Shown here: positions 4,121 to 10,634 of the stretch, in pieces
Layout: every line of letters begins with the position of its first letter
Numbering within the stretch: position 1 is the stretch's first letter
Source of the DNA: Caldilineaceae bacterium
Lineage (GTDB): Bacteria; Chloroflexota; Anaerolineae; Caldilineales; Caldilineaceae
Direction of reading: 5' to 3'
Assembly: GCA_026705565.1 (NCBI GenBank)
Contig: JAPPAJ010000068.1
Location: 1 to 43,528 of the forward strand
Length of the DNA stretch: 43,528 nt
Made by a program: the position numbers and the translations under genes
Notes under the pieces: generated by a model
Seen by the model: only the letters and a program-made list of their open reading frames with translations
Database searches by the model: none
Told to the model about the DNA's origin: nothing

Positions 4121-4187
4121 ATGTAGTGGCATCGGCGCGTGCCTGGGGTACGCGGTGTACGAATTACCTGGGCGAAAGGGCACAGTC

Positions 4188-7085
4188 ATGAAAGTCGGAC
4201 AGATGGGCACAGGCCAACTCGGGATCGACCGTTTCGGGGGTGCGGTTCCGACCGTGCAGACCGTCGTCGACCTGGATGCCGTCCGGGTGGCCAAGCGCGA
4301 CCCGGCGGACGGCATGGTTCCCTATGACCGACAGCGGATTCGCAACGCCATCATGAAGGCCTTCCTGGCGGAACAGCGCAGCCTGCAGGGCGAAGCACTC
4401 GACCACAGGGTGGATCCCATCGTGGATGCAGTCGAGCAGCGGGTGGCGCAACGAGCCCTCGGACGCCCTTCGTTGTCCGTGGCCGTCGAGGAAATCCAGG
4501 ATCAGGTCGAACTCGTCCTGATGAAGTCGGATCATGAGGAGGTGGCCCGGCGCTACATCATCTATCGCGAGGACCGCGCCCGGGAACGGGCGGTCCAGGC
4601 CGAGACGGCCTCGCTTTTGCTGCCCGTGGAGTTGATGGTGGCCTTGCCCGACGGCACGCGCGAGCCTCTGGATCTCGAGCGCCTGAAGGTGCAGATCGAG
4701 GAGGCCTGCCACGGCCTGGACGGCGTCTCCGCGGACGATGTCCTTGAGGTTCTGGCGCGCGACGTCTACAACGACATCACGCCGAAGGACCTGCGCACGG
4801 CGCAGATTATGGCGGCGCGCTCCCTGGTTGAACAGGAACCCGACTACTCGAAGGTGAGCGCGCGGCTGGTCCTGCGCAAGCTCAAGGACGAGGTGTTCCC
4901 CTTCATCTGCCCCGGCGTGGCGGGCATCCGGGAGCTGACCGACCGCCAGCAGTATCGGGCCTATTTCCCGCGCTACGTGCGCACCGGCATCGACTGCGAA
5001 CTGCTGCAACCTGCGCTGGCCGAAATCTTCGACCTGGAACGGCTGGCCGGGGCCTTGGCGCCGGAACGGGACCAGCAGTTTCAGTTTCTTGGGCTGCAGA
5101 CCCTCTACGACCGGTACTTCCTCCACTCGGGCGGTACGCGCATCGAACTGCCGCAGGCGTTTTTCATGCGCGTGGCGATGGGACTGGCCCAGCAGGAGGC
5201 CGATCCGGACGAGCGGGCCATCGAGTTCTACGAACTGCTGTCGTCGTTCGACTTCATGTGCTCGACGCCGACCCTCTTCAATTCGGGAACCGTCAATCCG
5301 CAGCTTTCGTCCTGCTTCCTTTCGACCGTGCCGGACGATCTGGCGGGCATCTTCAAGGCGATCAAGGACAACGCCCTGCTGTCCAAGTTCTCGGGCGGCC
5401 TGGGCAACGACTGGAGCCAGGTACGGGGTTTGGGAGCCCACATCAAGGGGACGAACGGAGAGTCCCAAGGGGTCATTCCGTTCCTCAAGGTGGCCAACGA
5501 CACGGCCGTGGCCGTCAATCAGGGCGGTCGCCGCAAGGGAGCGGTCTGCGCCTACCTCGAGGTGTGGCACATCGACATCGACGAGTTCCTCGACCTGCGC
5601 AAGAACACGGGCGACGATCGGCGCCGCACCCACGACATGAACACCGCCTGCTGGGTGCCCGACCTCTTCATGGAGCGGGTCCAGGAGGACGGGAACTGGA
5701 CCCTGTTCTCGCCGGACTCTGTGCCCGACCTGCACGAGATCACCGGTCTCGAGTTCCGGGACCGCTATCTCCTGTACGAACAGCAGGCGGCCGAAGGCCG
5801 GCTGAAGGTCACCAAGCGCATCCGCGCCCGCGATCTGTGGCGGCGCATGCTGACCATGCTCTACGAAACGGGGCACCCCTGGATCACGTTCAAGGATCCC
5901 TGCAATCTGCGCTCGCCGCAACAGCACGTCGGTGTGGTGCACTCCTCCAACCTGTGCACCGAGATCACGCTGAACTCCTCCGTGGATGAGGTTGCCGTGT
6001 GCAATCTCGGGTCGGTGAACCTGTCCAACCACGTTGAGAACGGCCAGCTCCTGCACCAGAAGCTGGAGCGCACCGTGACCACCGCGATGCGCATGCTGGA
6101 CAACGTCATCGACATCAACTACTACACCATTCCGGAGACGCACACCAGCAACCAGCGGCACCGACCGGTCGGCATGGGCATCATGGGTTTCCAGGATGTC
6201 CTGCACAAGCTGAACATCGCCTATGCCTCGTCCGAGGCCGTGGAGTTCGCCGACGTCAGCATGGAGGCGGTTTCCTGGTATGCCATTTCGGCGTCCGCCG
6301 CCCTGGCCGAGGAACGCGGCAGCTACCCGTCGTTCGAGGGCTCGCTCTGGTCCCAGGGCAAGCTGCCCTGGCACTCGCTCGACGATCTGGACAAGGCGCG
6401 GTATCGGAAGCTTGAGGTGGACCGCAGCTCCACCCGCGATTGGGACAGCCTGGCCCGTCGGATCCAGCGCGCGGGCATGCGCAACTCCAATGTGATGGCC
6501 ATCGCGCCAACGGCGACGATTGCCAACATCTGCGGTGTCAGTCCGTCCATCGAACCGGTGTTCCGCAACCTGTACGTCAAGGCCAACATGTCCGGCGACT
6601 TTGTGGTGGTCAACCCCTATCTGGTGGACGACCTGAAGGAACTGGGTCTGTGGGATCCGCTGATGATCAGCGATCTCAAGCTGCACGACGGCAGCCTGCG
6701 CGACATTCCGCGGGTTCCGGACCGGCTGAAGGAGCTGTATGCCACGGCCTTCGAGATTGATCCGACTTGGCTGGTCAGGGCAGGGGCCCGGCGCCAGAAG
6801 TGGATTGACCAGTCCCAGTCATTGAACCTGTATGTTTCCTCCACCAGCGGCAGGGAGTTGGACGAACTGTACCAGCTGGCCTGGACCCAGGGCCTGAAGA
6901 CGACCTACTACCTGCGGACGCAGGGTGCAACCCAAGTGGAAAAGAGCACGCTGCAGGGCACGGACGGACGGCTCAATGCGGTTCCGGTGGCCCCGGCCCC
7001 GCCCACGCTCTACAGCGAGCTTGAGACTACCGTGGACGGGTTGGTCTGCAATCTGGACGACGAGGACTGCGAAGCCTGCCAGTAG
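4188..7085 (+). CDS. nrdA: Class I ribonucleoside-diphosphate reductase large subunit with two ATP-cone regions
   Basis: The product is 965 residues from ATG 4188; GTG 4155 in the same frame is an alternative start. An ATP-cone occupies about residues 25-130 (VAKRDPADG, VPYDRQRI). A second cone-like region follows at about 145-240 (ITPKDLRTAQIMAARS). The catalytic barrel has the redox cysteines in LSSCFLS and VCNLGSVNL and the thiyl-radical loop NLCTE near residue 590. The tyrosine pair YYLRTQ near 907 relays the radical from the small subunit, which marks class I. The C-terminus ends CNLDDEDCEACQ, supplying the swinging cysteines re-reduced by thioredoxin. The enzyme makes deoxynucleotides from ribonucleoside diphosphates. 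No nrdB lies nearby, so the partner must be encoded elsewhere. Length and cone number fit the longer Chlamydia/Chlorobium-like NrdA forms. Confidence 0.96.
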   Translation: MKVGQMGTGQLGIDRFGGAVPTVQTVVDLDAVRVAKRDPADGMVPYDRQRIRNAIMKAFLAEQRSLQGEALDHRVDPIVDAVEQRVAQRALGRPSLSVAVEEIQDQVELVLMKSDHEEVARRYIIYREDRARERAVQAETASLLLPVELMVALPDGTREPLDLERLKVQIEEACHGLDGVSADDVLEVLARDVYNDITPKDLRTAQIMAARSLVEQEPDYSKVSARLVLRKLKDEVFPFICPGVAGIRELTDRQQYRAYFPRYVRTGIDCELLQPALAEIFDLERLAGALAPERDQQFQFLGLQTLYDRYFLHSGGTRIELPQAFFMRVAMGLAQQEADPDERAIEFYELLSSFDFMCSTPTLFNSGTVNPQLSSCFLSTVPDDLAGIFKAIKDNALLSKFSGGLGNDWSQVRGLGAHIKGTNGESQGVIPFLKVANDTAVAVNQGGRRKGAVCAYLEVWHIDIDEFLDLRKNTGDDRRRTHDMNTACWVPDLFMERVQEDGNWTLFSPDSVPDLHEITGLEFRDRYLLYEQQAAEGRLKVTKRIRARDLWRRMLTMLYETGHPWITFKDPCNLRSPQQHVGVVHSSNLCTEITLNSSVDEVAVCNLGSVNLSNHVENGQLLHQKLERTVTTAMRMLDNVIDINYYTIPETHTSNQRHRPVGMGIMGFQDVLHKLNIAYASSEAVEFADVSMEAVSWYAISASAALAEERGSYPSFEGSLWSQGKLPWHSLDDLDKARYRKLEVDRSSTRDWDSLARRIQRAGMRNSNVMAIAPTATIANICGVSPSIEPVFRNLYVKANMSGDFVVVNPYLVDDLKELGLWDPLMISDLKLHDGSLRDIPRVPDRLKELYATAFEIDPTWLVRAGARRQKWIDQSQSLNLYVSSTSGRELDELYQLAWTQGLKTTYYLRTQGATQVEKSTLQGTDGRLNAVPVAPAPPTLYSELETTVDGLVCNLDDEDCEACQ

Positions 7086-7452: not shown

Positions 7453-8616
7453 ATGGATGCGGTGGATGCCCTGAAGCAAGGGCTCAAGGTTGCCGGCATA
7501 CCGCCCCGGAAACTGAACGGTCAGGACACTCCGGACTGGCAGACACAGGATGATGCGCGTTGGTGGGCGGCGGACGCTGCCGCGGATCCCGTTGCTTGGC
7601 AAGCACATCTTGAGAATCTGTGGCATTACGATCCAGCGTATCCCTACGATCCGTGCCATCTGTACGATGACGACCGGACTACGGATCCGGACTATGGCGT
7701 GGACGGGGTGCATCTGATGGCCGGTGACGTTCATCTGCTGTTCCAAGCGGAAGCCCATCGGACGTTGAAATCCATCTTCGGCGATCGGTACATCACCGAA
7801 CTGGCCATGAAACCGAGTACCGCGTATGCCGAGCAGATGCAGGCTGTGGGCAGGCGATATGGGTTCGCTGCTGTCCGCTTTGCCCCCGACATCGCCGTTG
7901 TTCCACCGTCCGTGGCGGCACAGTACCCGCCGTGGTCCGACAGGAAGAGCCCGAACCGGCAGCAGATGCTCGACCTGGATCGCTTGCCGCCCCCCCAGTT
8001 GGTCGTTGAGATTGTCTCCGAAGACTCGGTGGACAGGGACGATACGTTCAAGCTCGAAGCCTACGCGCTCATTGGGATCGGCGAATACGGGGTCTATGAT
8101 CCCGAAGGCTTGACGGGGGCAACCCCTTGGCGTCTCTTCCGGCTGCAGGGAGACAGCTACCGCCTGCTCCAGCCGGATCCGGAGCTGTCGGAGGCTGGAG
8201 TGCCAGCCTATTGGAGCGATGTGTTCGGAATGTTTGTGCGCATGCTGTCGGAGACTGCCTTGGGCATCGATGATCCGGATCCTCTCGGTCACAGGTTGCA
8301 GGTTTGGGATTCGGATCCGGCCAAATGGAGGGATCACGCCACCGACGAGCGGGATGCCCTTGATCAAGCATGGGAACAGACCACGCAGGTTCGGGAGGAA
8401 CGCGCATTCGAATCCGGCCTGCAGCAAGGAGAAGCCAAACTCTTGGAGACACACATTGATGCTGTGCGTGTTCTTCTGAGTGACAAGGTCTCCGAAGATG
8501 TGCTGGTGCAAGTCGAAACTGACTGGCGCACAGCTGGACGCTATCGCTCTCTTGAGGAAATTGCTGCAGTTCAGGCAGGCACGCGCAGTTGGCACACGTT
8601 GCTGTTCCGTGTGTGA
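7453..8616 (+). CDS. Uma2-family (DUF820) PD-(D/E)XK nuclease-like protein
   Basis: 387 residues from ATG 7453. The core at about residues 85-215 has the Uma2 arrangement: an early helix-strand region, then APDIAVVPP with the first acidic residue, then LPPPQLVVEIVSEDS with the second acidic position, and a later K in DDTFKLEAY followed by GIGEYGVYDP. These are the hallmark steps of the Uma2/DUF820 restriction-endonuclease-like fold. The N-terminal 85 residues are unusual for this family. The C-terminal 120 residues are rich in charged helix (EERAFESGLQQGEAKLLE), the typical tail of large Uma2 proteins. Uma2 genes are often multicopy in Cyanobacteria and Chloroflexota, and their cellular role is unsettled. 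It precedes a DNA methylase on the same strand. Confidence 0.88.
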   Translation: MDAVDALKQGLKVAGIPPRKLNGQDTPDWQTQDDARWWAADAAADPVAWQAHLENLWHYDPAYPYDPCHLYDDDRTTDPDYGVDGVHLMAGDVHLLFQAEAHRTLKSIFGDRYITELAMKPSTAYAEQMQAVGRRYGFAAVRFAPDIAVVPPSVAAQYPPWSDRKSPNRQQMLDLDRLPPPQLVVEIVSEDSVDRDDTFKLEAYALIGIGEYGVYDPEGLTGATPWRLFRLQGDSYRLLQPDPELSEAGVPAYWSDVFGMFVRMLSETALGIDDPDPLGHRLQVWDSDPAKWRDHATDERDALDQAWEQTTQVREERAFESGLQQGEAKLLETHIDAVRVLLSDKVSEDVLVQVETDWRTAGRYRSLEEIAAVQAGTRSWHTLLFRV

Positions 8617-8715: not shown

Positions 8716-9729
8716 ATGGATACAGAGGGCAGGGCCGATGTTGAACGGCCGGTTCTCAATACGAGAGATCAACCGGTACTTGGGTTGGGGCAAGGCGGCC
8801 CGGCATCCCAACGGGTCTTTGCGCCACCAGCCAACATCGTGAGCCTCCAAGCCCCCCTGGCACACATAGCACACAGCTTTCCCACATCACGCCTCCCGGC
8901 CGTCAATGTGGCTCAGGTGCCCCAGCGCAGTCCCCTGCGTTATCCCGGGGGCAAGACTTGGCTCATCCCACATGTACGTGACTGGCTGCGACAGGTGCAG
9001 CCTACGCTGCTCGTGGAACCTTTTTGTGGCGGCGGCATCGTGTCCCTAACCGCGGTGATGGAGGGCCTGGTGGAGCAATGCGTGATGCTGGATCTGGATC
9101 CCGATGTGGCGGCCTTCTGGCACGCGGTACTGCGGGAGGGCGAAGCCTTGGCCCAACGGATTGAGACCTTCGAGCCGACCCGGGAGCGGGTGGAGGCCCT
9201 GTCACAGAAGGTGCCTCTCAGCGTCCTGGACCATGGTTTCCGCACATTGGTACTGAACCGTACGCGCCGTTCGGGCATCCTGGCTCCTGGCGCGGCCCTA
9301 ATTCGGCAGGGGGAAAACGGTCAGGGCCTCGGATCGCGCTGGTATCCGGACACGTTGGCGCGTCGCATCCGGGCCATTCAACCGTACGCGTCGCGGATCG
9401 CCTTTGCCCAAGGGGATGCCTTGGCCCTTTTGCCACCGCTGTTGCACGGTTGGGGACGGCGTGCAGCCCTGTTTGTCGATCCGCCCTACACCGCCGGTGG
9501 CAAGCGGGCTGGTCAGCGTCTCTACGCTCATCACGAACTGGACCACGAGCAGCTTTTTGCTCTCCTGGCTTGTGGTCGGGGCTCCTTTCTCCTGACCTAC
9601 GACGCGGCTCCTGCCATTGAACATCTGGTACTTCGCTATGGCTTCCACCCCGTACGGGTGGCCATGAAGAATGCCCACCACGCCCGCTTGCCCGAGCTGG
9701 TAATAACGCCGGAGCCCCTCTTCACATGA
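8716..9729 (+). CDS. D12-class DNA adenine N6-methyltransferase (Dam-like)
   Basis: The frame from ATG 8716 gives 337 residues, but the family match begins only at SPLRYPGGK (about residue 72). A shorter start at GTG 8839 or GTG 8908 is therefore quite possible. Motifs seen: YPGGKTWL with the adjoining helix; VEPFCGGGIVSL (motif I, SAM binding) near residue 95; and FVDPPYTAGG (motif IV, catalytic DPPY) near residue 255. The order I-IV with a helical recognition segment between them is that of the alpha-group (D12) adenine methylases, which usually methylate A in GATC-like or restriction-system sites. The stop codon overlaps the start of an apparent restriction-enzyme remnant in an ATGA junction, so I infer the modification half of a decayed restriction-modification pair. 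Confidence 0.93.
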   Translation: MDTEGRADVERPVLNTRDQPVLGLGQGGPASQRVFAPPANIVSLQAPLAHIAHSFPTSRLPAVNVAQVPQRSPLRYPGGKTWLIPHVRDWLRQVQPTLLVEPFCGGGIVSLTAVMEGLVEQCVMLDLDPDVAAFWHAVLREGEALAQRIETFEPTRERVEALSQKVPLSVLDHGFRTLVLNRTRRSGILAPGAALIRQGENGQGLGSRWYPDTLARRIRAIQPYASRIAFAQGDALALLPPLLHGWGRRAALFVDPPYTAGGKRAGQRLYAHHELDHEQLFALLACGRGSFLLTYDAAPAIEHLVLRYGFHPVRVAMKNAHHARLPELVITPEPLFT

Positions 9730-9902
9730 CCCGTCCTCCCGCGCCGCGGTACGGCATTGCGGAATGGCATGGTCAGTCCTTCCGTGACCTGGATCCAACC
9801 CAGCGTCAGACTCTGGCCCGGGTTGCCGGACATAGGGGATGTGAAGGCAGGGGGTGCCCAATCCTTCGGCCTTCGCTGGGCAGGACCACTCCACGCGGTT
9901 AA
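9726..9902 (+). pseudogene. Truncated restriction-endonuclease-like N-terminus
   Basis: A 58-codon frame begins at ATG 9726 and overlaps the methylase stop as ATGA, the classic translationally coupled arrangement. The peptide starts MTRPPAPRYGIAEWHGQSF and continues into RDLDPTQRQTLA, then RGCPILRPSLGR. As I recall, some restriction endonucleases (NotI-like proteins with a CPF...C.K.GGVC zinc region) open with a similar YGIAEW...RQ...CPF pattern. The frame then ends, while the +1 frame stays open to 10047 and contains VKICELVRG, which could be the continuation of the cysteine region after a frameshift. Intact enzymes of this type have some 300 or more residues, so this copy is broken. The family identification is from memory only. 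Confidence 0.45.
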
Positions 9903-10019
9903 GATCTGCGAACTGGTAAGGGGGCCTGTCAACCACAACCGTACAACCAACCCTGGCTTGTTGCACCCAAGCATCCAAGAAGACAGGGATGTGGGTGTCT
10001 TGGCCCCGGGGGATCCGGT

Positions 10020-10634
10020 TCAGAGGTTCCATGTGGCAAGTTGGTGATAGAGATTCCCTTGGGGTGTTGCTTCGGTACGGTACAGGTGTATGTGCTGCAA
10101 AACGGCTTTCCGTTCTGGCGATGGGACCGGTGCCTCGCGCGGAATCAGCTGCAACCCCTTGAGTTCACTGCGGTTCTGAAACCGTCTCCGGACCCGACCC
10201 AGCGTGATATGTGGTCTGAAAGGTTTCGAGTCATGGGTCAGATCGGCCTTGTCCACGGCCGACAGCAAGACTCCATGCAGCTGCTGCAGGCGATTTCCGG
10301 ACTCGATGACCGGACACCAGAGACCGCGCGGACGTGTGGGTTTGGGAAAAAACCGGGGTAGCTGGATCATGGTGTCGGGAGCCGACAGGCCGTCACACTG
10401 GCCATCCAGCAAGTCCTGCAGCCGCTGACACTCCCGGTCCTGCAAAGGTCCCAGGAAGACCAGGGTCAGGTGCAGGGACTCGGGACGCACCCAGCCCACT
10501 GCCCGTTCCAGCCCGGCCGCTGACAGCTTCTGCTGTAGATGCCGCTGCCAGGCGCACAGCCAGGACACGGCATCGTCGGGGAGGGAACACCCCAGGAAAC
10601 AGTTGGCGCGGGTTGCCTTTGTGTCGGCCTTCAT
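10020..10634 (-). CDS. thpR: RNA 2',3'-cyclic phosphodiesterase (2'-5' RNA ligase family)
   Basis: 204 residues. The two HXTX motifs that define the 2H phosphoesterase superfamily are both present: LHLTLVFLG near residue 55 and PHITLGRVRR near residue 145, about 90 residues apart as usual. The opening NCFLGCSLPDDA matches the typical start of ThpR (R[AC]F.A..lp). The enzyme opens 2',3'-cyclic phosphates on RNA to 2'-phosphates. Its start codon overlaps the stop of the SCO1-like gene (ATGA, 10631-10634), so the two are co-translated. There is no obvious functional tie between them. Length and motif spacing are normal. Confidence 0.94.
   Translation of the reverse strand: MKADTKATRANCFLGCSLPDDAVSWLCAWQRHLQQKLSAAGLERAVGWVRPESLHLTLVFLGPLQDRECQRLQDLLDGQCDGLSAPDTMIQLPRFFPKPTRPRGLWCPVIESGNRLQQLHGVLLSAVDKADLTHDSKPFRPHITLGRVRRRFQNRSELKGLQLIPREAPVPSPERKAVLQHIHLYRTEATPQGNLYHQLATWNL

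Follow-up and report, generated by a model that had tools for sequence, protein, structure and literature searches.

Whether solitary DNA methylases decay into that state in place or arrive as such is a point left open in the accessible part of PMC4176335, and it is one on which a locus of a Caldilineaceae bacterium bears. The locus lies on JAPPAJ010000068.1 (assembly GCA_026705565.1), a stretch of 43,528 nucleotides analyzed at full length and here called the window. It is the whole of contig C373 (43.5 kb) in a draft genome, G000, that spans 4.55 Mb in 413 contigs and is 96% complete. In the window a gene for an adenine DNA methylase (M) is followed directly by an open reading frame (ORF) of 58 codons. 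Very probably the two are the remains of a Type II restriction-modification operon, from which the gene of the restriction endonuclease (R) was deleted and in which M was left as an orphan. The evidence comes from comparison with three further genomes of the genus (G001, G002 and G003), which together with G000 represent four separate species and are all that the genome collection yielded.

A methylase gene and the stub of its partner

The features that make up the locus are as follows.

8716..9729, plus strand: complete gene for a D12-class N6-adenine DNA methyltransferase (M); the longest ORF, 337 codons from the ATG at 8716; PF02086
9726..9729, plus strand: ATGA overlap of the M stop and the R start, read in the sequence; the same overlap occurs in G002
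9726..9902, plus strand: ORF of 58 codons with an ATG start, overlapping the TGA of M
9726..9826, plus strand: stub of a NotI-family restriction endonuclease gene (R); 33–34 codons homologous to R of G002
9822..9827, plus strand: deletion junction; homology to G002 R on the left ends at 9821–9826, homology on the right (G002 contig C2, 1880 onward) starts at 9824
9824..10060, plus strand: flank of the neighbouring thpR gene, read as codons 34–58 of the ORF and on into the end of thpR; 76% identical over 248 columns to the G002 flank

M passes the curated cut-off of PF02086 (E = 8e-11; 42.5 bits, cut-off 22), has no internal stop, and keeps the motifs DPPYTA and EPFCGGG, the former invariant in 9 of 9 aligned homologues; DPPY is the catalytic motif of D12-class adenine methylases. 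The GTG at 8839 is the likely start of translation, in agreement with the N-terminus in G002. The protein is 82% identical to M of G002 and 84% to that of G001.

In G002, M is followed, with the same overlap, by a complete R of 297 codons that passes PF12183, the NotI family (E = 1.6e-41; 142.7 bits, cut-off 22); the family membership is taken from this profile, since a search of R against solved structures (phmmer, E 0.1) found no PDB chain. The 58-residue peptide of the window is 67–68% identical to the N-terminus of this R over 46–47 residues, and the window DNA is 86% identical to G002 over 136 nucleotides that include the end of M; with such identities the match of the ORF to R is not due to chance. 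The peptide matched no family in Pfam or NCBIfam, and plasmid and phage searches with it gave no match. Nor does the stub match PF12183, which in G002 R begins to match at residue 33, i.e., past the part kept in the window. A search of the G000 genome with G002 R returned the stub alone and no further copy of R.

Counted over 30 bases at each step, identity to G002 R is 24–27 through the step starting at 9798, then drops to 15 at 9813 and to 7 at 9828; the blastn alignment ends at 9821–9826. From 9824 to 9958, the window aligns with 1880–2021 of G002 contig C2, in the flank of thpR (76%, E = 7e-21), and this match extends to the end of thpR. With identity to R ending at about 9826 and the thpR-side flank directly after it, the alignments show a single deletion that fused codon 33–34 of R to the flank. 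Its size is at least ~790 bp, made up of ~262 R codons (measured on G002) plus extra DNA between R and the flank, and the last ~24 codons of the ORF are read-through into the flank. A peptide-level match reaching codon 46–48, with a CP pair at the expected spacing, was dropped as homology, the DNA identity there being near chance. The homology also stops before the cysteines and the nuclease core that are present in G002 R; the cysteine cluster of NotI is metal-binding.

The initial annotation of the window had seen here a restriction endonuclease gene cut short or frameshifted after 58 codons and joined by ATGA to an intact adenine methylase, now an orphan. Its outline holds: the ORF at 9726–9902 starts on the TGA of that at 8716–9729, G002 carries the intact orthologous pair, and the methylase is complete and has no cognate R in a genome recovered to 96%. 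The suggested peptide search, which might have led to nothing or to a family of full-length small proteins, led instead to the N-terminus of a full-length endonuclease. The cut, though, falls at codon 33–34 rather than 58, and a frameshift is ruled out as its cause, the DNA past 9826 being flank with no homology to R in any frame. The +1-frame ORF at 9757–10047 (96 codons), where a continuation of R had been suspected, gives no Pfam match and runs mostly through the flank.

One locus in four species

Three neighbours of M and the stub, none of them part of the system, frame the locus.

4155..7085, plus strand: ribonucleotide reductase gene, which we take to be nrdA-like from its sequence rather than from a family search; conserved left neighbour
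7453..8616, plus strand: Uma2-family gene (PF05685, E = 2e-10)
10020..10634, minus strand: thpR, RNA 2',3'-cyclic phosphodiesterase gene (TIGR02258, E = 2e-26); conserved right neighbour

The M locus is orthologous across the four species, because the nrdA-like gene (~97% identical) lies 5' of M in all of them and thpR lies 3' in three. The thpR gene is found in 4 of 4 genomes; that of G002 is on a separate contig, which also carries a DDE transposase gene. Along this conserved order R is complete in G002 and lost in G000, G001 and G003. In G001, R has an altered start codon, and what remains is a gapped match of ~73 nucleotides across the M end and the R start. In G003 only the first ~5 codons of R still match, and an insert of 56 nucleotides breaks M as well, of which no second copy was found in that genome. 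The insert (locus L012, about 2038–2094) is GC-rich, partly palindromic, and single-copy in G003. Some flank lying left of the right breakpoint of the window survives in G003, and R sequence absent from G003 survives in the window; since each retains DNA that the other lost, neither deletion can come from the other, and at least two deletions at this locus were independent.

M is whole in three of the four species and is dispensable in the genus. The ratio of nonsynonymous to synonymous changes (pN/pS) among its private substitutions, computed over the 257 codons that align across the four species, is 0.118 in G000 (36 synonymous, 12 nonsynonymous) and 0.122 in G001 (29 and 10), the two lineages with a whole M and no R, compared to 0.189 (28 and 15) in G002, where R is whole, and 0.157 (18 and 8) in G003; nrdA gives 0.04–0.10 and thpR 0.25–0.47. 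These values indicate purifying selection on M, also in lineages without R. They are no proof of a present role, because part of each branch may predate the loss of R.

The Uma2-family gene does adjoin M, as the initial annotation had pointed out. As a partner of M it is rejected: it is no part of, and unrelated to, the M–R system, because the G000 genome has 50 Uma2 matches (48 above the cut-off, a large expansion) and G002 has a different Uma2 gene at the locus, the gene there varying by species (31% identity between the window and G002).

Loci beyond the genus

Searches with M across 61 genomes, its own included, gave matches in 20, and plasmid and phage searches returned only homologues below 60% identity. 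In a panel of the best 80 of 577 confirmed M homologue loci (the M panel), whole M stands with whole NotI-family R at 48, with broken R at 11, and without NotI-family R at 20; the one remaining locus, that of G003, has broken M without R. Hence M is whole in 79/80, and broken M with whole R occurs in 0/80. The R of L084 and L095 has internal deletions, and both are scored as broken. A second panel was drawn with R from 298 genomes of the class and comprises 28 loci, the window included: both genes are whole in 15, and whole M stands with broken R in five, of which the window is one.

Among the 20 M-panel loci that have a whole M but lack NotI-family R, the neighbours of 17 were judged by eye, L069 alone of these being run against Pfam. 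Three of them, in Chloroflexi-type records (L101, L104 and L110), have a lone whole M right behind a gene presumed to be uvrB-like, a conserved orphan place. The other three have different companions. At L099 the M homologue (1985–2857) has a BglII-family endonuclease gene upstream (PF09195, E = 2e-24), an apparent swap of partner. At L115 (1926–2891) and L117 (1863–2846), M homologues lie downstream of a gene of ~325 residues with no Pfam match, the two being 23% identical to each other; that of L117 has a stretch with DDGVD and QVATGKNWKEK that by eye resembles a nuclease core, and the gene is possibly an undescribed partner of M.

To look for the recognition motif, site avoidance was compared in 318 kb from the 50 loci then scored as R-whole (L084 and L095, later scored as broken, included) against the 30 others, and in stretches of G002 (239 kb), G001 (338 kb) and G000 (350 kb). 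The first set gave GTGCAC and AGGCCT as leads; in the second these are not outstanding and weak others, such as AACGTT, appear. The two tests used different background models, and no recognition motif of M is claimed from either data set.

Decay of the operon and its alternatives

In the proposed course of events, the original operon would have consisted of M and a NotI-family R joined by the ATGA overlap. One deletion took R from codon 34–35 to its end along with the DNA behind it, and R is dead from the loss of its cysteines and nuclease core; the window does not hold the whole R and whole M that make up a functional Type II system. M, now solitary, should still mark its site, guarding against nothing encoded in its own cell. 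Its persistence probably has two reasons: a cell can lose M without harm only after it has lost R, and the loss of R would be recent relative to sequence drift. Decay of M would come later, as in G003. Loss of M while R is active may be lethal, according to the accessible text of PMC4176335.

Several observations weigh against this reading or its generality. A cognate R could lie in the missing part of the genome, which is 96% complete, and an error of assembly in one genome is possible because the four of the genus are all multi-contig drafts. The activity of M in the window is predicted. Broken M is under-sampled in the M panel, since the panel was drawn with M. Furthermore, the rule that R is lost first is not followed by every locus, because the R panel has two loci of 28 with whole R and broken M (L128, and L145, cut by the contig end) and three with whole R and no such M within ~1.2 kb (L139, L144 and L148); three more have broken R without M, two of them at locus ends. 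At L128 the whole NotI-family R is accompanied by an M that is encoded on the other strand as two frames that overlap, which is either an assembly error or a case of R active without whole M. At L139, L144 and L148 the partner of the whole R may be another methylase.

Among the alternatives, which concern either what keeps M or what the locus is, an unlikely one that nevertheless fares best is that M was domesticated after the loss of R and is kept as a regulatory or housekeeping methylase; a use in regulation had also been raised by the initial annotation. The whole M in three of four species, the low pN/pS of both R-less lineages, the 20/80 M-panel loci where M is whole and NotI-family R is absent, and the shared place of the R-less M beside the uvrB-like gene are consistent with it. 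However, the low pN/pS also reflects time spent with R present, there is no known regulatory target, and G003, whose only copy of M is broken, argues against M being essential in the genus.

Somewhat more doubtful still is an antidote role, in which M persists because it shields the genome from the same NotI-family R, whether this enters from neighbouring bacteria that have the intact pair or is active in them. Exposure to a matching R is plausible because the pair occurs at loci from many phyla (the 48/80 with whole R), and the accessible part of PMC4176335 discusses such a role for solitary methylases of mobile elements. Against this, the incoming enzyme would need identical specificity, and G003 survives without M.

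An artefact, with an intact R in the organism that assembly or binning dropped, might be suspected of a draft in 413 contigs but is highly improbable: the junction lies inside a 43-kb contig that continues into homologous flank and thpR in conserved order, and no pieces of R occur elsewhere in the genome. Marginally weaker even than this is a functional small protein, such as a controller protein or a leader for translation of M, for although the 33–34 homologous codons show no stop or frameshift relative to G002, the last 24 are read-through, no family matches, and neither G001 nor G003 preserves the frame.

Decay of a restriction-modification operon thus remains the favored account of the window. 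As a broader speculation, to which we give only a small chance, a horizontally spread M–R cassette might repeatedly lose R, in this genus and in symbiont-type genomes of many phyla, with selection keeping M as an antidote or a new regulator; if so, M would survive the nuclease and leave a methylation mark common to a community. Judging from the prefixes of their records, many of the panel loci are probably from sponge samples, and restriction-modification is described as enriched in sponge symbionts in the accessible portions of PMC5649159 and PMC8163846.

Comparison with known systems

NotI-family Type II systems with an adenine methylase are found on the plasmids pEST4011 (Achromobacter denitrificans), pKAM497_4 (Aeromonas caviae) and pTbrSNM4-1c (Thermus brockianus), where a methylase of the same family, to which M of the window is 46–48% identical, adjoins a gene annotated as "NotI family restriction endonuclease". 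On these plasmids R is whole and precedes M, whereas M comes first, with the ATGA overlap, in the window and in the species closest to it, and the R of the window is a stub. The best PADLOC match of M is the B protein model of PD-Lambda-5 (E = 7e-47); of the proteins compared, the Uma2 neighbour and G002 R match none of the models of that system. Membership of the methylase family is most likely all that the match reflects, and the partner of M would be another one than in PD-Lambda-5, because G002 R matches no PADLOC model.

Further close parallels are the orphan methylases beside degraded endonuclease genes reported by Seshasayee et al. (2012), as cited in the accessible parts of PMC6471742 and PMC4176335, which share the whole M, the degraded R and the explanation by loss of R. 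Decay of a restriction-modification system to an orphan methylase is a known process, which the window illustrates in an ordinary but very clear form; for the organism itself the result is an ordinary one. According to the accessible part of PMC4176335, solitary methylase genes come by transfer more often than by decay in place. Unlike the cases of Seshasayee et al., as far as the accessible text describes them, a single orthologous locus is seen here in complete and decayed states across four species of one genus, so that an intact pair, three decayed versions and at least two independent deletions can be ordered by comparison into a clean instance of the origin of an orphan methylase.
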